A stretch of 33,303 bases of DNA from Clostridia bacterium (lineage in GTDB: Bacteria; Bacillota; Clostridia; Oscillospirales; Acutalibacteraceae): contig JAFXAK010000023.1 in the NCBI GenBank assembly GCA_017517135.1, positions 1 to 33,303 on the forward strand. Reading direction: 5' to 3'. Of the stretch, positions 5,896-22,239 are shown one piece after another (positions within the stretch are counted from its first letter, which is position 1; every line of letters starts with the position of its first letter). A program made the position numbers and the translations under genes. Under the pieces are notes generated by a model that worked only from the letters and a program-made list of their open reading frames with translations, did no database searches and was not told the origin of the DNA.

Positions 5896-7527
5896 TTATT
5901 TAAAAATTTTTCTTTCAACCCGTCTGATTTCCTCATATACATCATACGGATGATAATTTTTTATCTTAAAATCCGCTTTTTCGGCAAGTGACATTTCTGT
6001 TAGCTGAGCCGAGAAGCGTTTTTTAATTTCCTCATCGCTTATTTTGTCGCGTTCTCTTATTCTCTCAATACGCACCTGCTCGGGAGCGAAAACGAGCAGA
6101 GAATAATCACAAATTTCGTTAAGTCCCGATGAAAACAGCAGGGGAGCATCAAGAATTACGGTTTTACCCTCGTTTGCCGCCGTTTCACAATGCTCTTTAC
6201 AGCGTTTTATTATTTCGGGGTGTGTAATCGAGGTAAGAAGAGCGGTTTTTTCTTCGTCTGCAAACGCTCTTGAAGCAAGTTTTCGGCGGTTTAACTCACC
6301 GTCGGGGGAGAGAATATCCTCACCGAAGGCAAGAGCTAATTTTTCAAGGACAGGGGAGCCTTTTGCGGTTATTTCTCTTGCTATCTTATCCGCATCAACC
6401 GTTACGGCACCCTTTTCGGTAAAATATGCCGCAACAAAGCTTTTACCCGAGCCGGAGGCACCCGAAAGACCTAAAATAACGCCCTTTTTCTCTTTTTCAT
6501 CATTGAGAAACCTGAATGCGGCGGCTCTGTACAGACGGTTGCATACTCCAAGTCCCACACCGCTCTCGTAAGGCTTGCGGACAAAGACCTTTTTTGCTCC
6601 CTTTTCGTCAAGCTCTCTTAAAGCATCAAAGATACGCTTTGCCTGAGAGAAGCTGTCATCGCTTGTTCCGAAGGTGACGGACGGCAAGGGCATTTTGTCT
6701 TCTTCACCCTCAAAGCACAGCACGAAATCGGCTTCGGACTTATGCTCATTTACATACGAGATAAACTGAGATAGATTTCCTCTTACTATGCTCAATTCAG
6801 CTTTGGGGGAATAGTGCTGATACTTCATTCCGGGGGAAGAAGCAACGGCATTCTTTTCGAGGGGATTGAGCACCGCCTTGTCTATTTTTATTTCACCCAA
6901 AACCTCTCTGAGCTGCTCGGGAGTAACAGCACCCGGTCTTAAAAGCGTGGGCGGCTCGGTTGCGAGTGTTATAACGGTGGATTCAATACCGCATTCGCAG
7001 TCTCCGCCGTCAACTATGGCACTTACTCTGCCTGTCATATCGTCCTCAACATACTGAAAGCAGGTAGGGCTCGGAAAGCCCGAAATATTCGCACTCGGTG
7101 CTGCAAGCGGAGTGCCTGCCGCTTCAATTATAGCCTGAGCCGCTTTATGTGCCGGAAAACGCACCGCAACTGTCGGCAGATTTCCGCTGACAACATCTGA
7201 TACACATTTTTTCTTCGGCAGAATAATCGTAAGAGGTCCCGGCCAGTATTTTTCGGCTAATTTTATCGCCTTTTCGGGGACCTTTTCAGCCAGTAAATAT
7301 ATATCCTCAAGCTTTGAAATATGGACAATCAGCGGATTGTCTGTAGGTCTGCCCTTTGCTTCAAAAATCTTTTTTACGGCATTTTCATTGAAAGCATCTG
7401 CCGCAAGGCCGTATACCGTTTCCGTCGGGATTGCAACAACCTCTCCGTTTTTTATGAACGAAGCAATTTTCTCTATTTCATTTTTCTGATTGTGAACATC
7501 TCGTATTCTGAAAAATTCGGTTTTCAT
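5896..7527 (-). CDS. sua5-coaE: Fused threonylcarbamoyl-AMP synthase (Sua5) and dephospho-CoA kinase (CoaE)
   Basis: One uninterrupted 543-residue frame carries two enzymes. Residues 1-340 are a full Sua5: the YrdC domain with PTETVYGLA at 34-42, the GRPTDNPLIVHI segment and SANISG near 145-150, then the Sua5 C-terminal domain introduced by SPGMKYQHYSPKA near 231-243. This makes threonylcarbamoyl-AMP for the t6A37 modification of tRNA. After a short charged linker (about 342-349) residues 350-543 are a complete CoaE with P-loop GASGSGKS at 356-363, DADKIARE, and the lid arginines in RIERIRERD; this is the last step of CoA synthesis. It starts 4 bases after prfA. Sua5 beside prfA is a common Firmicutes layout; the usual prmC between them is absent. 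Confidence 0.9.
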   Translation of the reverse strand: MKTEFFRIRDVHNQKNEIEKIASFIKNGEVVAIPTETVYGLAADAFNENAVKKIFEAKGRPTDNPLIVHISKLEDIYLLAEKVPEKAIKLAEKYWPGPLTIILPKKKCVSDVVSGNLPTVAVRFPAHKAAQAIIEAAGTPLAAPSANISGFPSPTCFQYVEDDMTGRVSAIVDGGDCECGIESTVITLATEPPTLLRPGAVTPEQLREVLGEIKIDKAVLNPLEKNAVASSPGMKYQHYSPKAELSIVRGNLSQFISYVNEHKSEADFVLCFEGEEDKMPLPSVTFGTSDDSFSQAKRIFDALRELDEKGAKKVFVRKPYESGVGLGVCNRLYRAAAFRFLNDEKEKKGVILGLSGASGSGKSFVAAYFTEKGAVTVDADKIAREITAKGSPVLEKLALAFGEDILSPDGELNRRKLASRAFADEEKTALLTSITHPEIIKRCKEHCETAANEGKTVILDAPLLFSSGLNEICDYSLLVFAPEQVRIERIRERDKISDEEIKKRFSAQLTEMSLAEKADFKIKNYHPYDVYEEIRRVERKIFK

Positions 7528-12386: not shown

Positions 12387-12427
12387 ATAAGCAAATAAAC
12401 AAGTTTTTTTGAAAGGTGGTTATGTTT

Positions 12428-13666
12428 ATGCCGGGACCTGCAGGCGGAGGAAGAAGCGGAGGCTTCGGCGGCGGCTCACACGGCGGCGGCTCTTTCGGCG
12501 GAGGAAGAGGCGGTTCATTCGGCGGCGGTGCAAGACCGTCGGGAGGCTTTTCAGGCGGACACAGGCCGGGCGGCGGCTTCGGCGGACCCGGACACGGGGG
12601 CTTTGGCGGCCCACCGCACAGACCACCCCCGCACAGACCTCATTACGGTCCGTTTTTCGGCAGGCGGTGGGGCAGACCATATGTGGGCTACGGCGGCTTC
12701 GGCGGTGCAGGCTGTGCAGGAATATTTGTATTTCTGATTTTTATTGTTTTCTTTTTTGCAAGTGTAATATTGCCGTCGGGAGAGATACTTTTTTCGGATG
12801 TACCTGTATATGAAAATTATACCGAGATTATCCACACGGAAATTGTTGAGATGGATCCGCTCGACGAAGCCTTGTGTAAGCCCATTGACACATATTATGA
12901 ATGTACAATTGAAGATGCAATAACCGAGGAAAACGAGGAAGTTCTCATATCGGGCTTAAAGGATTTCTATTCACAGACGGGAGTTCAGCCCTATATAATT
13001 TTCACCAATGACCTTGACGGAGACACTTCCCCCGATTATGACACGGTAAACACATATCTGTATGACCGCTATATAGAGCTTTTCGGTGAGGATGAGGGGC
13101 ATTTCATTCTGCTTTATATAGAGGACGAAAACCGTGAATATGAATTATGGTATATAAGCGGATATGATGCAGAAAGCATTATGGATGACTACGCCTGCGA
13201 TATTCTGCTCGATAATGCACAAGAGCAGCTGTCCTACGGCGGAGACTATGCAAAGATTTTTTCAACCGCCTTTTCAGCATCTGCTAAAGAAATAATGTAC
13301 CGTGAGGAAAGCTATTATACCTATGAAGAGATAACACAGGCCGGTCCTGATAATGTTATAATATATGATGATGCAAATGATATAGTATCTATTCCCGAAA
13401 AAAGCACATTTTCAGTTACGGGAATATTGCTGATTGTTATCGGAATTGCCGCAGTCGGTGCAATTATCTTTATTATCTTTAAGAAAAACAAAAAAGAAAA
13501 GGAAGACTTTGCCCGTCAGGAAAAAAGAGAATCGGTATATAAAAACGCGGGTAAGCAATACGAATACGCGAAAACAGACACCCTTGTAACCTGCCCCCAT
13601 TGCGGAGCAACAGCTTATCCCGATTCAAACAACAACTGCAGCTATTGCAGAAAAAGCGTAAAATAA
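12428..13666 (+). CDS. Gly-rich membrane protein with TPM-like domain and C-terminal zinc ribbon
   Basis: The 412-residue product has four parts. The N-terminus (about 1-90) is a low-complexity Gly/Arg/His/Phe/Pro segment made of GGGSHGGGSFGGG-like units. A membrane segment follows (about 100-122). Then comes an acidic domain (about 130-300) with KDFYSQTGVQPYIIFTND, HFILLYIED and YELWYISG, whose order resembles TPM domains (YgcG/Psb32 type), although this is a weak match by eye. A second membrane segment (about 328-350) and a short charged linker lead to a zinc ribbon with CPHC and CSYC near the end. In-frame GTG and ATG codons lie at 12416 and 12422, but GGTGG fits the ATG at 12428. It is monocistronic. 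Function unknown; envelope stress or membrane-protein quality control would be a guess. Confidence 0.8.
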   Translation: MPGPAGGGRSGGFGGGSHGGGSFGGGRGGSFGGGARPSGGFSGGHRPGGGFGGPGHGGFGGPPHRPPPHRPHYGPFFGRRWGRPYVGYGGFGGAGCAGIFVFLIFIVFFFASVILPSGEILFSDVPVYENYTEIIHTEIVEMDPLDEALCKPIDTYYECTIEDAITEENEEVLISGLKDFYSQTGVQPYIIFTNDLDGDTSPDYDTVNTYLYDRYIELFGEDEGHFILLYIEDENREYELWYISGYDAESIMDDYACDILLDNAQEQLSYGGDYAKIFSTAFSASAKEIMYREESYYTYEEITQAGPDNVIIYDDANDIVSIPEKSTFSVTGILLIVIGIAAVGAIIFIIFKKNKKEKEDFARQEKRESVYKNAGKQYEYAKTDTLVTCPHCGATAYPDSNNNCSYCRKSVK

Positions 13667-15304: not shown

Positions 15305-18300
15305 TCAGAATTCAAATTTCTTTCTGCTCTCCTCTTTAAGTCCCGCAAAGATGTTGTCATCCTCGTAGCGGCTGAAAAGAGCATCATCATAAATGTTTAT
15401 GGGAGTGTTATCCTCGGGGGGAACGAATTTAGCATTGAGGGGATCGTCTTCCTCTTTTTCCTTTTCGGGGAGATTGAAAACGGGAGGCTCGGGCATTTCG
15501 GGAGGAGTGAAATGCAGAGTTTCGTTCAGACTTCTTTTTTCTTCCTGAAGCTGTTTTTCGGTTTTGCGTTCGTTTCTCTCAGCGAAATCACCGAAAAGAG
15601 AGAACTTCTTTTGGGTGGGAAGCTGTGAAAAATCGTTTTCATTTACATTAACGCCCTTTTCTTCCTGAGCTTTTACGGGCTCTTCGCTGTATTCTTCATT
15701 TTTGCTAAGCTTTATTGAAGACAGAGATGAAGCTCCTTTTCTGATTGCCGATAAAAAGCCTTTTAAGGGAGCTTCTTTTTCTTCAATAGCTTCACTTATG
15801 GGAGCAGGATCGTCATCAGCAGTATTTCTACTTTCTTCTGTTTCGTCTGACATAGCCATAAAATCTGACTGAGGCTCACTTTGTTTTACGGTATGTACGC
15901 TCTTTGCCCCCTTTCTGACTGCGGTATTGCCTAAAGCAAAGGGAACACCGAAGCAGATGATGAGCCAGACTATCTGCAAGAGCACGGGCATAAAAGCGGC
16001 TGTTGAGGAGAATGCGCCTGTTATAACAAGTATGAGAGAAAGTACAAGTCCCACAAATGCTCCGCCCTCGCATATTCCCTTGCACAGCTTCTTTGTTCTG
16101 TCAAGTCTCAAAGCGGCTCCCGCACAGCGGCAGAGTGAATCAAAGGAGGATGTAAACACAATTCCCGCATCCTCTTTGTCGGTAACTGTATTTTTTGCAC
16201 CGTTGAGCTTTTCAACCGCAGCAGGGGAGATAATTCTCACGCTGTTTGCAGGTAATCCTAAAAGCTGCTCGGCGTATTCCTCTGTTATATTGGGATCGTT
16301 AGATGAAATGAGAATATTTGTGCCTGCTTCAACAAGAGAACGCAGATTTTCGCGCACATCTGCCTTACAGGAATATTTTACTGCGAACATTGCCGCAAAA
16401 TTACCCTCAAGAGAGAGGAAAAGCGGTTTTTCGTTTTCATTAAGGAAATGCATTGCCGCATTTTCATCGGGAGCCTTGACATTGTGATTTACAAGCAATG
16501 CCGCGGAGCCTAAGAGCACACGGCAGTTCTGAATCCATGCTGAGTGACCTAATTTGTATTCATAAGCATAGTCCTCAACCTTGGGGAAGCGGTCCTCAAG
16601 ACCTGAAACGCTTGCTTTGAAAGCAGATGAAACGGGAGAGTATACGCTGCTTGTGAGAACTGCGGCACAAAACTGTGCCTGTTTGTCATTGACACCCTTT
16701 GCGGTGAGGATATTTGTAATTTCAGCCTCGAAGAGCTCGTCTGTGCTTATAACAATATCGTCAACCGCCGCAAAGTCGCGGGCATCCGTATATGAATGAA
16801 CAAAAGAGGTTTTAAGAGAAAGCTTTTTATTTTCCTTTGAAATGAAGAAGCCTGTTGCTGTGATACAGCTTACGGGGAAGGAAAGGGCTGCACACAGCGT
16901 CATACCGCTGAGAGCATACAGGAAACCGCCCTTTGCTATCCAGGCAATGATACCCGCTAAAACGGAAGCTGCAATACAGATGAGAACAGTTCTTGACGAG
17001 GGCATACTGCCGACGGCACTTTTTGCACTTCTTCCGAGGAAATTGCTTATAAATCTTGTTTTTCCCGAATAAACAACATTTGCATCCTTACTTTCGTTGT
17101 CACGAAGCAGGGAAGAAACGGTCTCTTCATCGGAAACGCGGCGCAGATATGATTTCTCACTCTTTGCACCTGCCGCCTTGAAGCAATGACGGATGTTGTC
17201 GTAATAGAAAAGCTTTCCTGCGAGGTAGGGTACACATAAGAGAATTACCGCGGAAGCATAGATATGGTAATTTTCTTCTATTTTAAGCTGTGTGAAGAAA
17301 GAAGCAATACTCTGAATGAGAGCAGATACCATCATAAAAAGAAGCGCGGTATCTGTTTTCGGATGTGTTTTCAGAAGAGAGAACAAGCCGTTTTTAAGCT
17401 CCTTTGCAAGAAGCACACAGCAGATAAGCAGGGCTATAAGGTTTATTGCAACATAAACTGCACTCTCTCCGCCGAAAAGGGTGAAGAAGCCCGCATTCTC
17501 TGCTGCCGAAACACTTGTAAGGATGTTTATGACAAGGAGAATAATACCTGAAACGGCAACTGCCGCTGTTTTGAACAGGGTACGCCTTCTTGTTTCAAGA
17601 AGAGAGGTGAAAACCTTTTTTCTTGACTCAAATTCCTCAAATTCCTCGCTGTCAAGCTGAATAAAGTCATTGCTGAGGTGCTCGAAATTTGCCGATAATT
17701 TGTCTGCAACAGGCTTTAAGAACATAGGCAGAGAGGTTTTTTCCGCATCGGCAGAAAACTTTTCGTCGTCAACCTGTGCTCCGTCTGAATGGCCGCTCTT
17801 GTTCCAGAACTGAAAGCTGTTTACTCTTTTGCGGCGTACCTCAGACAGCTCCTGCTCAAGCCTTTTTTCTTCTTCCAAGGCTTCCTGTCTGGCTTTTTCT
17901 TCCTGTTCGGAAGTATCAAAGCCCTCCATCATAAGCTGATCGGGATTCTGACGGATATCGTCATTTGCGGTGAGTGCAATTTCCCGCATAAGAGAGCCCT
18001 TTTCGGAATCAAAATATTTTGTGGGCTCACCTGCTTCTTCAAGAATATCACCGAAGTCCTCGGAGATTACGAGCGGCTTTGTTTTTTCGTCGGTCTCCTG
18101 TGCTTCTTCAGAGACAGCCCTTTCTGTGTCAGGCTCCTCTTCATTTTCAGGAAGCTTTATGAATTTTTCGGTTGATGAATCGGACGAATGATTTTTTGCA
18201 TATGAAGATACGGCACCCGTTTTTGCAAAACGCTTTTTGCCTTTTGAACGCTGAGAAAGGCGGTCGGTGTATTTTTCAACATCTGTTGTTTCTTCCTGAG

Positions 18301-18556
18301 CATCTGTATTTTCGGATGTACTCACAAAGGGTGTTTCCCCTGTTTTTATAAATCTTGTGCTGTTTTCGGTTACAGGCTCCTCTTCGGGTGCATCAGGGAT
18401 GTGTACCTGTGAATTTCCCGATGTCTGCAGCAGAGGAGTGGTCTTTATATTTTTTTGTACACTTTCTTCTTCGGGGACAGCTTCTTTTGCAATTTCAGAC
18501 TGCTGAGAATTCATTTTCCCTTTGAAATGTGCGAGAAAGTCTTTATATTCACTCAT
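15305..18556 (-). CDS. Large membrane protein resembling a P-type ATPase that lost its catalytic motifs
   Basis: The 1083-residue product has a 310-residue acidic, low-complexity N-terminus with a short coiled coil (about 215-245), a membrane core (about 328-885) and a 200-residue charged, disordered tail. The core follows the heavy-metal P-type ATPase order: four membrane segments (328-348, 365-388, 402-424, 433-452), a short loop where the actuator domain belongs, two segments (521-541, 545-572) with a central Pro, a cytoplasmic region, and two last segments (833-850, 855-876). The cytoplasmic region has ATPase-like strands, but the DKTGT site reads STDEL (604-608), TGD reads SND (752-754), GDGxND is missing and no TGE is seen. 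I infer a pseudo-enzyme. It starts 12 bases after rlmB and precedes the GH27 gene. Confidence 0.75.
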   Translation of the reverse strand: MSEYKDFLAHFKGKMNSQQSEIAKEAVPEEESVQKNIKTTPLLQTSGNSQVHIPDAPEEEPVTENSTRFIKTGETPFVSTSENTDAQEETTDVEKYTDRLSQRSKGKKRFAKTGAVSSYAKNHSSDSSTEKFIKLPENEEEPDTERAVSEEAQETDEKTKPLVISEDFGDILEEAGEPTKYFDSEKGSLMREIALTANDDIRQNPDQLMMEGFDTSEQEEKARQEALEEEKRLEQELSEVRRKRVNSFQFWNKSGHSDGAQVDDEKFSADAEKTSLPMFLKPVADKLSANFEHLSNDFIQLDSEEFEEFESRKKVFTSLLETRRRTLFKTAAVAVSGIILLVINILTSVSAAENAGFFTLFGGESAVYVAINLIALLICCVLLAKELKNGLFSLLKTHPKTDTALLFMMVSALIQSIASFFTQLKIEENYHIYASAVILLCVPYLAGKLFYYDNIRHCFKAAGAKSEKSYLRRVSDEETVSSLLRDNESKDANVVYSGKTRFISNFLGRSAKSAVGSMPSSRTVLICIAASVLAGIIAWIAKGGFLYALSGMTLCAALSFPVSCITATGFFISKENKKLSLKTSFVHSYTDARDFAAVDDIVISTDELFEAEITNILTAKGVNDKQAQFCAAVLTSSVYSPVSSAFKASVSGLEDRFPKVEDYAYEYKLGHSAWIQNCRVLLGSAALLVNHNVKAPDENAAMHFLNENEKPLFLSLEGNFAAMFAVKYSCKADVRENLRSLVEAGTNILISSNDPNITEEYAEQLLGLPANSVRIISPAAVEKLNGAKNTVTDKEDAGIVFTSSFDSLCRCAGAALRLDRTKKLCKGICEGGAFVGLVLSLILVITGAFSSTAAFMPVLLQIVWLIICFGVPFALGNTAVRKGAKSVHTVKQSEPQSDFMAMSDETEESRNTADDDPAPISEAIEEKEAPLKGFLSAIRKGASSLSSIKLSKNEEYSEEPVKAQEEKGVNVNENDFSQLPTQKKFSLFGDFAERNERKTEKQLQEEKRSLNETLHFTPPEMPEPPVFNLPEKEKEEDDPLNAKFVPPEDNTPINIYDDALFSRYEDDNIFAGLKEESRKKFEF

Positions 18557-18568
18557 AGTTTTTTCTCC

Positions 18569-19399
18569 TTATCGTTTGTTTGCGGCTTCAAAGAGCAGTA
18601 CTGCTGCCGCAACAGAGGCGTTGAGGGAGTTTATTTTCCCTTTCATAGGGATTGACACAACAACATCGCAGTTTTCCTTTACAAGTCTGCTGATGCCTGC
18701 TCCCTCAGAGCCTATAACAATAGCACACGGCCCCGAAAAATCCGTTTTTCTGAAATCCTGACCGTCCATATCTGCGGCATATACCCATATGCCTTTTTCT
18801 TTAAGCTCTTTTATTGTGCTTGTGAGATTTGTAACCCTTGCGACCTTTACATATTCGAGTGCGCCTGCCGAGGTCTTGCCCACGATACCCGAAAGGCTTA
18901 CGCTTCTTCTTTCGGGAATAATAATCCCGTGGACACCGCAGCACTCGGCTGTACGGATTATTGCACCTAAGTTATGGGGATCCTCGAGAGAATCGCATAT
19001 AACTATAAAGGGAGGCTCGTTTTTATCCTCGGCTTCCTGTAATATTGCCTCAACCGTTGAATATTCGTGAGCCGCGGCAATCATAATAACGCCCTGATGA
19101 TTGGCATGTCCGCACATAAAATCAAGCTTTTTTGAATCAACCTCTTTGACGATTATCCCTTTTTCCTTACATTCTGCTATAAGGGGGAGAATTGCACCGC
19201 CCTTGTCGCCTCTTTCAACAAGGAGAGAATCCGCAGGTCTGCCCGATTTAAGTGCTTCTCTTACCGCATTCCTGCCGATGATAAGGTCGGTACGCGGCTC
19301 TGACCTTTCTTCCTTTGAAAAGTCACGGCGGTTATCAGAGTCCTTTTTTCTGTTCTGAAAATTATCGTTTTTCTTTTTATAGTATCTGTCAAAAGCCAT
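18569..19399 (-). CDS. rlmB: SpoU-family 23S rRNA 2'-O-ribose methyltransferase (RlmB type)
   Basis: A 276-residue enzyme. After a basic, Asn/Arg-rich N-terminal tail (about 1-35) comes the substrate-binding domain beginning IIGRNAVREALKSGR and then the SpoU knot domain. The three SpoU motifs are visible: DSLEDPHNLGAIIRTAECCG (motif 1), IVIGSEGAGISRLV (motif 2) and IPMKGKINSLNASVAAAV (motif 3). This is the pattern of RlmB (Gm2251 of 23S rRNA) and of TrmH-like relatives with the same fold; RlmB is the most likely. It heads a minus-strand run with the pseudo-ATPase and the GH27 gene. In many Firmicutes rlmB is next to cysS and mrnC instead; neither is here. Confidence 0.92.
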   Translation of the reverse strand: MAFDRYYKKKNDNFQNRKKDSDNRRDFSKEERSEPRTDLIIGRNAVREALKSGRPADSLLVERGDKGGAILPLIAECKEKGIIVKEVDSKKLDFMCGHANHQGVIMIAAAHEYSTVEAILQEAEDKNEPPFIVICDSLEDPHNLGAIIRTAECCGVHGIIIPERRSVSLSGIVGKTSAGALEYVKVARVTNLTSTIKELKEKGIWVYAADMDGQDFRKTDFSGPCAIVIGSEGAGISRLVKENCDVVVSIPMKGKINSLNASVAAAVLLFEAANKR

Positions 19400-19917: not shown

Positions 19918-22239
19918 ATGACAGAGGTACTCGAAAAAATAAAGGAAAAAGTTAAAAAATCTCCCCTTGTAAAATTAAAAAAATTTGTATGGCACATTTT
20001 TTATGCACTCACGGCATTTTTTATGGGAAGTATAAGCTTTGCGGGGACAATTTCTCCTTTCTCGGCAGCCTTTGTTTCAGCCGCAACACCCGAATTTCTT
20101 TTACCCACAGCTTTAGGTGCGGCAGCCGGGTATCTTGTTTTCTGTACACAGCTTACTGCCCTGCAGTATGTGGGGGCCGTTACGGTAATCTGCTTTGTGA
20201 AATATTTTACCGGGCGGAGCGTAAAACCCTTTTTCAGAATGTACATATACACCCTTACGGGCTTTCTTGCCTTGCTTTTCAGCAGTATTCTTATCAGCAT
20301 TGCAGGCGGTGCTGCGGCTTCTCAGCTGCTTGTGTGCCTTTGTGAAAGCCTTATATGTGCCGCTGTTTCCTGCTTTTTCTACAAGATTTTCATAATGTTT
20401 TCGGGCGGACTTAAAAAGATATATTTTACTTCATCGGAAACTGCCGCATTTCTGTTTTTTGTGGGTGTGCTTCTGCTGCTTCTGGACGGTTTTCCCGTTT
20501 TCGGGGTATCCGTGTCACATATCGCGGCGGGCTTTGTTATACTGCTGTTTTCCTATTGCGGAAAGGAAGCCTCGGGCAGTCTTTCGGGGGTATGCTGCGG
20601 TGTTACATTGGGCTTTTCCGAATTTCAGCCGCAGCTTATGCTCTCTTATCCCTTATCGGGACTGCTTTCGGGTTTTTCTGCCGAATACGGCAAGGGTGCT
20701 GCGGCGGCAGGCTTTTTTATTTCTCAGATGCTCGCCCTCGTTATCAGGGGTAATCCCGATGCCGCAGCCTTTACCGTAGGAGAAAGCCTTGCTTCTGTTC
20801 TGATTTTTATGCTTATTCCCAAGGCTTATCTGAAGAAAGCCGCCGAAAGGCTCTCACCCTTAAGCCGTGATGCCTTTGAAAATGAGGCTGTGCAGATACT
20901 TTCTTTCAGGATAAAAAAATCCGCAAGAGCAGTAAGCGATATGGCACAGTCTGTTATGACGGTTTCCTCTGCCCTTGCAAAAACGGAAGCCACTACTGTT
21001 TCTTCAATTTATCTCAGCGTAAAAGAGGATGTGTGCGAATGCTGTTCAAAAAGGGAGCTGTGTTGGTATAAAAACGGAAAAACTACAGAACAGGCCTTCC
21101 GACAGGCAAATTCTTATCTTGTGAAAAAGGGAAAAATCAGTTCTGAGCTTCTTCCGGAAATAGTCAGAGCCTTCTGCGAAAAAACAGACGAAATAGCTGA
21201 GAGCTTCAGCAGAAATATGTGTGAATACAACGCGAATGAGGCTGTAAAGCATAAGCTTTTGCAGACAAAAGCCCTTGTTTCCGCACAGCTTTTAAGCGTT
21301 GGAAGGCTTTTGGAGGACACGGCAGAGAATGTAAACGAGGTCTTTTATACGGATGCCGTCAGCGCAACATATGCAAGAGAGGTCTTTTTACAGGAGGGCT
21401 TTTCTTTTTCTTCTCTTCTTGCCCGTACGGACAGCCTCGGCAGAAGCTTTTTAGAGGTTTTCTGCACGGCATTTCCCGAAAATCCCGATTATGTACATCT
21501 GTGCGAGGAGCTTTATCTGCGTACGGATATACAGTATATGCTCCCCGAAAGGGCGGACTACGGCGACACAGGTACGGTGCTGAGCTTCTGTGAAAAAACG
21601 GTGTTCACCCCCGAGTTTTCCTGCTTTTCTCACACAGGTACGGGAGAAAAATTCTGCGGAGACACATGTCGGAGCTTTTTTGACGGGAAAGGGAATTTCT
21701 ATGTGATTTTAAGTGACGGAATGGGAAGCGGACAAAGAGCCGCCCTTGATTCGCTGATGACGGCTTCTCTTTTGCACAAGCTTCTTATTGCAGGCTTTTC
21801 TGTGGAATGTGCCGCAGAGAATATAAACTGTGCCTTGATGATAAAATCAGACGACGAAACGCTTGCAACACTCGATGTTCTGAAAATCAATCTGTATACG
21901 GGAAGGGCTGAGTTTTACAAGGCGGGAGCCGCTTTTTCCGTTGTTAAAAAAGGGGAGAGAACAGCCCTTGTTGAGCAGTCCTCTCTGCCCTTGGGTATAA
22001 TAAAGGATGCTCAGATAAAGAAAACACAGCTTGACCTGTCTGAAAGAGACTGTGTTTTACTCATATCCGACGGAGCGGCTGTTTTAGCCCCCGAGCAGTT
22101 CAAGAAAATTTTTCACTCGAAAAAAGCAGACACACCCGAGAAAAAAGTCCGTGCGGTTGTTGAACACTCTCTTGAAATGTCCGTTTCGGGCAGAAATGAC
22201 GATATAACAGCCGCATTTGTACGGCTTAAAAGGAGCTGA
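19918..22239 (+). CDS. spoIIE: Stage II sporulation protein E, PP2C-type phosphatase
   Basis: A 773-residue membrane phosphatase. The N-terminal third (about 25-310) has roughly ten hydrophobic segments; a central regulatory part follows, including a Cys cluster (CECCSKRELCWY, about 370-381); and the C-terminal PP2C/SpoIIE domain (about 560-773) has DGMGSG with Asp600 and a late LLISDGA motif, the metal-binding aspartates. Family knowledge: SpoIIE sits at the asymmetric septum and dephosphorylates SpoIIAA to switch on sigma-F in the forespore. Length and order fit the family. AGAGGA lies before the ATG. In Firmicutes spoIIE is Spo0A-controlled; here a MITE-like element lies immediately upstream, so the promoter must be inside or beyond it. 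Confidence 0.95.
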   Translation: MTEVLEKIKEKVKKSPLVKLKKFVWHIFYALTAFFMGSISFAGTISPFSAAFVSAATPEFLLPTALGAAAGYLVFCTQLTALQYVGAVTVICFVKYFTGRSVKPFFRMYIYTLTGFLALLFSSILISIAGGAAASQLLVCLCESLICAAVSCFFYKIFIMFSGGLKKIYFTSSETAAFLFFVGVLLLLLDGFPVFGVSVSHIAAGFVILLFSYCGKEASGSLSGVCCGVTLGFSEFQPQLMLSYPLSGLLSGFSAEYGKGAAAAGFFISQMLALVIRGNPDAAAFTVGESLASVLIFMLIPKAYLKKAAERLSPLSRDAFENEAVQILSFRIKKSARAVSDMAQSVMTVSSALAKTEATTVSSIYLSVKEDVCECCSKRELCWYKNGKTTEQAFRQANSYLVKKGKISSELLPEIVRAFCEKTDEIAESFSRNMCEYNANEAVKHKLLQTKALVSAQLLSVGRLLEDTAENVNEVFYTDAVSATYAREVFLQEGFSFSSLLARTDSLGRSFLEVFCTAFPENPDYVHLCEELYLRTDIQYMLPERADYGDTGTVLSFCEKTVFTPEFSCFSHTGTGEKFCGDTCRSFFDGKGNFYVILSDGMGSGQRAALDSLMTASLLHKLLIAGFSVECAAENINCALMIKSDDETLATLDVLKINLYTGRAEFYKAGAAFSVVKKGERTALVEQSSLPLGIIKDAQIKKTQLDLSERDCVLLISDGAAVLAPEQFKKIFHSKKADTPEKKVRAVVEHSLEMSVSGRNDDITAAFVRLKRS

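Follow-up and report, generated by a model that had tools for sequence, protein, structure and literature searches.

The window analysed here, the whole 33,303-nucleotide stretch of contig JAFXAK010000023.1 (assembly GCA_017517135.1) from a Clostridia bacterium of the Acutalibacteraceae, carries on its minus strand a gene, called X below, that encodes a relative of the heavy-metal pumps known as P1B-type ATPases and lies directly downstream of rlmB. X represents a single-copy family carried by almost all sampled genomes of one clostridial order. Its product has the fold of a P1B pump and, as the alignments described below show, lacks the motifs on which the pump cycle depends. The two genes and the parts of the X protein are as follows.

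15305..18556, minus strand: pseudo-P1B-ATPase gene X, 1083 amino acids plus stop codon, ATG start
18569..19399, minus strand: rlmB, 23S rRNA Gm2251 methyltransferase (TIGR00186, E 6.6e-74), the constant upstream partner, ending 12 nt before X
17627..18556, minus strand: acidic N-terminal tail of X (residues 1-310), largely disordered, with a predicted helix at 216-246 and 23% Asp plus Glu
17918..17938, minus strand: tail motif 2, QLMMEGF (residues 207-213), from motif counts and an alignment of congeners
17171..17626, minus strand: membrane helices 1-4 (residues 311-462), from the structural model, with a weak alignment (13 bits) to LpCopA residues 82-217
16997..17170, minus strand: shrunken remnant of the actuator domain without TGE (residues 463-520), carrying the family motif KTRFxxxF
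16817..16996, minus strand: membrane helices 5-6 (residues 521-580), with FPV at the CPC site and Pro561 kept
16733..16747, minus strand: STDEL in place of DKTGT (residues 604-608), from the alignment
16370..16729, minus strand: remnant of the nucleotide-binding domain (residues 610-729), with YExKLGxSAW and VLLG present and the HP motif lost
16283..16303, minus strand: SNDPNIT where pumps have TGD (residues 752-758), from the alignment
15914..16144, minus strand: membrane helices 7-8 (residues 805-881), with GDGxND and about 50 residues ahead of helix 7 deleted
15308..15913, minus strand: acidic C-terminal tail (residues 882-1083), largely disordered

The start codon of X lies 12 nt past the rlmB stop codon and has AAGGAG immediately 5' of it. 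The frame, which the original prediction had described as intact over 3.2 kb, is a single open reading frame (ORF) of 1083 codons. In the Pfam scan of the window protein no family scored above its cut-off, and the NCBIfam CopA model matched only residues 610-760 (E 4.4e-10), far below the cut-off of that model. Scanning genome contigs with the single protein as query returned no relative, and the Pfam scan of 39 members of the family produced two families, each weakly matching one member. A profile search with the cores of 39 X-family proteins retrieved Legionella CopA (3rfu) at E 4e-35, followed by other P1B pumps. The AlphaFold model of the X core has a mean predicted local distance difference test score (pLDDT) of 88.5 and a predicted template modelling score of 0.83, and the long helices in it, read by eye, are grouped 4+2+2, which bears out the eight membrane segments proposed from the sequence. 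Foldseek likewise placed P1B pumps as the best matches of this core (4bbj, E 4.3e-17), so that structure prediction, suggested earlier as a check, recovered P1B topology. The relative arrangement of domains superposes poorly on 4bbj, given a template modelling score of 0.50 and a root-mean-square deviation of 11. X is thus a P1B-ATPase relative by descent and fold, with homology over the membrane, phosphorylation (P) and nucleotide-binding (N) domains.

The model of the full-length protein (pLDDT 67.3) places residues 1-215 and 883-1083 mostly below 50. The ends had been described as disordered extensions of about 310 and 200 residues; this is correct for most of their length, but the N-terminal 310 residues are not disordered throughout because a helix at residues 216-246 is modelled at pLDDT near 80. 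Values below 50 cover residues 13-160, 162-183, 204-215 and 248-273 of this tail. Long C-terminal tails are confined, among the rows measured, to the genus of the window, where one congener (L023) has a C-terminal tail of 52 residues.

P-type ATPases are defined by a phosphorylated aspartate. We counted motifs in an alignment of 119 distinct X members, some of them partial, in which six genuine P1B pumps from within the order served as controls; one control (L073) is the P1B pump of the window's own genome and has DKTGT, TGD, HP and GDGIND intact. X shares with the Cu+-type P1B ATPases (CopA/PRK10671, TIGR01525; LpCopA 3rfu/4bbj) the 4+2+2 helices, the order of actuator, P and N domains, the nucleotide-binding fold and the Asp of TGD, and the helix-6 proline stands 43 residues from the catalytic column both in window X and in the six pumps. 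In contrast to these pumps, DKTGT, GDGxND, HP and the CPC pair are lost in all 119 members and TGE in all but two, the actuator domain is shrunken, the P domain has a deletion of about 50 residues, and the protein has one or two long, largely disordered tails and an rlmB neighbour.

At the phosphorylation site the window protein has STDEL, and neither K, G nor the last T of KTGT is retained in the corresponding alignment columns of any member; the string DKTG occurs in two of the 119, both times in a tail. Full TGD is found at its site in a single member, the window having SND (residues 752-754). The GDGxND segment is deleted throughout, and the distance from TGD to helix 7 is about 53 residues in window X versus 103-108 in the six pumps. 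TGE is present in the actuator region of two members and anywhere in the protein in 40, with none in that region of the window protein. The His of the HP motif is found at its site in none. CPC, and SPC at its site, are likewise absent from all 119, a lone Cys occupying the first position in seven and the third position in seven, and the helix-6 Pro of this site is kept in 102. The family has conserved stretches of its own (YED-LGLSAW, VLLG and KTRFxxxF), and residues G683, G670 and D754 are nearly invariant. The original prediction had read four of these changes from the window (STDEL for DKTGT at 16733-16747, SND for TGD, a missing GDGxND, and a shortened actuator loop without TGE), and all four stand, the first to the exact coordinates. 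Homologues with an intact DKTGT, sought as evidence against that prediction, were not seen among the 119 members. Judged by this alignment, the signature motifs of active pumps (DKTGT, TGD, GDGxND, TGE, HP, CPC/SPC) are all wanting in the window protein. Because both catalytic and metal-binding motifs are lost, X is presumably unable to run the pump cycle, and the family as a whole would have lost pump activity.

X was found in 154 of the 158 genomes of the order sample (genomes at least 95% complete; the window's own genome is 94% complete) and in 97 of its 99 genera, with one match each (E <= 1e-45). The four order-sample genomes in which it was not found are G344, G475, G499 and G495; two less complete genomes, G031 (92%) and G040 (55%), likewise gave no X. 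In a class sample of 393 genomes, for which at most three first-look candidates were scored per genome, 21 of the 22 order members gave at least 318 bits over nearly the full profile, and the best among the matches listed for the 371 genomes outside the order reached 140 bits; these listed matches were restricted to roughly positions 194-488, which is the stretch that ordinary pumps match. In a phylum sample of 249 genomes, with five candidates scored per genome, matches at E <= 1e-45 were confined to its three order members. The order that carries X is probably Oscillospirales.

A tree of the shared region separated 52 X representatives from 19 P1B pumps by one long branch, whose support value was 1.0 under one rooting and 0.78 under another. 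Since this tree has no outgroup, the direction of descent, from pump to X, rests on the loss of motifs and not on the tree; X derives from the heavy-metal pump group, apparently by a single origin. Selection on the family was estimated from the 25 closest of 65 pairs of X relatives. The ratio of non-synonymous to synonymous substitution rates (dN/dS) was 0.03-0.14 in the core and 0.06-0.19 in the N-terminal tail, several of the 25 pairs having dS above 1 and being less reliable for that reason. The window protein is not among these pairs because no relative shares more than 52% core identity with it, and the earlier suggestion of selection rather than decay is upheld by purifying selection among its relatives. 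In the available sequence of locus L032 (4164-6557, genome G058), an in-frame TGA, which may be real or a sequencing error, splits the X copy into two ORFs.

We examined 120 loci, of which 119 hold X and 110 are distinct. In 111 of the 119 rows, and in 104 of the 110 distinct loci, rlmB stands directly upstream of X in the same orientation; the gap between them has a median of 20 nt across these 111 rows (the one gap of 1106 nt belongs to an interrupted copy). Of the six distinct unlinked loci, five run into a contig edge within 242 nt. Any other neighbour family of the rlmB-X pair is seen in at most 17 of the 104 loci, flank lengths being variable. The neighbour clustering itself caught rlmB in just 90 of the 104, since the greedy choice of ORFs in that procedure drops some. 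The four genomes of the order sample without X have only weaker relatives of rlmB, none above the family cut-off, and rlmB and X therefore seem to be absent together. The original prediction had placed X in an rlmB-GH27 run. The rlmB part of this run does belong to a unit with X, but GH27 is incidental: it occurs in 6 of the 104 related loci and is adjacent to X in three, and a GH27-X unit was rejected on these counts. To judge from their adjacency, rlmB and X are likely to be co-expressed.

In the window, spoIIE (19918-22239; TIGR02865, E 3.2e-102, below cut-off) is divergent from rlmB, and similar-looking divergent genes adjoin rlmB in some of the related loci. Upstream of the rlmB-X pair, parB-like, serS-like and parA-like genes, named from sequence, are found in 17, 17 and 16 of the 104 loci, respectively. 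Downstream of X, a gene for an EF-G-like GTPase, also named from sequence, is found in 14 of the 104 (for example, L197) and is adjacent in nine.

The N-terminal tail exceeds 60 residues in 114 of the 119 members (median 313), and the tails are, as far as examined, too divergent for alignment across families. Two short motifs recur in them. Motif 1, FSxDDILxE, has 17 strict hits versus 0.02 in shuffled tails, all of them beginning within the first 70 residues, and a weight matrix added 19 of the remaining 97 tails, with 1.15 expected at the threshold. Motif 2, Q[LMI]x[LMF]xGF, is present in 59 of the 114 tails versus 0.35 in shuffles. Relatives were not down-weighted in the counts over 114 tails, and we guarded against their influence by an analysis of 51 tails with core identity below 42%. 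There, motif 1 was the top de novo pattern (DIL.E in 14 of 51 versus 0.25 expected), and the Q..L.GF form of motif 2 was found in eight of 51 with none expected. In the window, motif 2 reads QLMMEGF; among 25 aligned congeners, Q207 and G212 do not vary and F213 is conserved in at least 90%. Within the genus of the window (L001-L026), a block LLREIA..A precedes motif 2 and patches of RFIKT and TGxTGK lie further upstream.

We considered whether motif 1 is simply common in these genomes. A search of 79 genomes with a DNA pattern encoding FSxD[DE]I[LF] gave 12 hits versus two for the reversed-pattern control. Eight of the 12 lie in X, one lies in an ORF beside rlmB that is cut by the contig end, and three lie in other ORFs. 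For this exact DNA pattern, a motif common in these genomes was rejected because nine of the 12 hits lie in X or at its position, although these nine stem from just three families (f4, f7 and f25). Motif 2 falls in a segment with pLDDT below 50 and is not confidently docked on the X core, and in the full-length model docking of the N-terminal tail back onto the core was not seen with confidence. Motif 2 resembles the beta-clamp-binding QxxLF, as given in the accessible part of PMC12309361, in its first four positions only (Q1, usually L2, often L or M at position 4, within a disordered segment), and differs from it in having G6-F7 and no F at position 5. Since that F is absent from all 114 tails (Q[LIM]x[LM]F in 0/114), motif 2 is not classed as clamp-binding.

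These data suggest a role in which the pump body is kept for a purpose other than transport. X retains the eight-helix membrane body and the fold of the nucleotide-binding domain, whereas the motif for phosphorylation, the GDGxND segment that binds Mg, the TGE loop, HP and the metal site CPC are gone. We give about an even chance to X being a non-pumping membrane anchor or docking scaffold that is co-expressed with rlmB. The pump-like body would anchor X in the membrane and may relay a signal that depends on ligand or conformation, and the disordered N-terminal tail would present FSxDDILxE, near the N-terminus, and Q[LMI]x[LMF]xGF, in mid-tail, to bind a putative soluble partner. Co-expression with rlmB would suggest a tie to ribosome or RNA work, or failing that an expression linked to growth in both genes, and X may be functionally linked to RlmB. 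A fuller version, which we consider possible but less likely than not, is that in a whole bacterial order a copper pump has turned into a non-transporting membrane hub. The two lineage-conserved motifs of its disordered tail would dock a machine of the cytosol at the membrane, be it RlmB, ribosome maturation or some other core process. X would then form a conserved bacterial class of P-type pseudo-ATPases that is passed on together with rlmB as a near-fixed two-gene unit. The original prediction proposed a transporter turned sensor, scaffold or regulator; the loss of motifs supports its non-pump part, and within the inferred role the tail motifs favour a scaffold or docking function.

Several observations weigh against the anchor and docking reading. 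In the window tail, motif 1 is not significant (score 6.0); 34 of the 114 tails have neither motif, and neither motif matched any known motif that could be named. The linkage has a real exception in G037, which has both rlmB and X, unlinked, and joint absence of the two genes can be the result of one deletion or one assembly gap. In G031, rlmB is present and X was not detected; the contig ends about 400 nt past rlmB with a short open stretch running off its end, and a displaced start of X past rlmB is possible there. At the active site, 71 of the 119 members have Asp in the catalytic column and 43 have S, N, R, G, K, T or H there (the window protein has Ser); 116 keep the TGD Asp, inside a new, strongly conserved DPNIT motif. 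The check on whether the catalytic Asp is missing in all homologues thus has a mixed outcome, since Asp stands in that column in these 71 but none of the members has KTGT. With these two aspartates, some residual HAD-like chemistry is formally conceivable in part of the family. We regard cryptic activity of this kind, such as phosphoryl transfer on the residual Asp, as very improbable: HAD chemistry requires the GDGxND Mg site, this motif and KTGT are absent from every member, and the catalytic column holds a residue other than Asp, or a gap, in 48 members, the window's copy included.

A different use of the pump body would be as a receptor for a ligand or metal, or as a passive channel, in which the body still binds something in the membrane and the domains relay its occupancy to the cytoplasm without ATP. 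The whole M domain is kept, including the kink proline, and G683, G670 and D754 are nearly invariant; two Gln residues in membrane helices show fair conservation, in 84 and 75 of the 119 members; and a pure anchor needs no nucleotide-binding-like domain held at dN/dS below 0.14. Yet the CPC pair is gone from every member, and in the membrane helices no Cys, Asp, Glu or His is found among the polar columns with the highest conservation, which leaves this alternative unlikely, though it deserves consideration. X might instead be a pseudo-subunit that pairs with the cell's genuine P1B pumps and so regulates them, as 87 of 88 order genomes, that of the window included, have a P1B match at E <= 1e-60 and 86 of 88 have one over the family cut-off. 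This explanation is weakened because P1B-like matches are just as common in genomes that lie outside the order (363 of 371), in which no X was found, and because G502 has X and no P1B at E <= 1e-60; moreover, the linkage of X is to rlmB, and its recurrent neighbours included no pump gene that was noticed. We consider it improbable. Finally, the missing DKTGT of the window and the broken relative L032 could be taken to mean that X is a pseudogene, a frameshift or a misassembly of a normal pump. The probability of this is negligible, as the family is present in 154 of 158 genomes, none of the 119 members has DKTGT, the core evolves at dN/dS 0.03-0.14 in close pairs of relatives and a normal pump is encoded elsewhere in the window's genome; decay or misassembly was ruled out on this order-wide occurrence, family-wide motif loss and low dN/dS.

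Elsewhere in the window, an ORF on the minus strand (5896-7527) fuses threonylcarbamoyl-AMP synthase (Sua5_yciO_yrdC and Sua5_C) to dephospho-CoA kinase (CoaE), and one on the plus strand (12416-13666) encodes a protein with a TPM domain (Pfam E 1.8e-9) whose C-terminus matches zinc ribbons weakly and below threshold. Rfam and tRNA scans of the window gave no matches, and a scan for promoters and terminators gave results near chance level.

Our literature search, in which subscription journals and bioRxiv were thinly covered so that its negative outcome carries little weight, returned no description of the X family or of a conserved prokaryotic P-type pseudo-ATPase, and no such prokaryotic pseudo-ATPase was found in the accessible portion of a review (PMC10654040). 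According to the available part of a published survey (PMC3896382), DKTGT is present in 99.77% of P-type ATPases; 22 of its 9,634 sequences have single point changes, and it describes no new class. Those sequences, as described in that part of the survey, are like X in having no intact motif; X differs from them in being a conserved family in which several motifs are lost together.

X is thus a conserved single-copy family without the catalytic motifs, yet under purifying selection, and annotation based on homology may label its members copper exporters. It can be used as a marker gene of the order, and it shows the fold of a pump reused for another purpose. The tail motifs and the near-fixed rlmB neighbour make the function of X testable.

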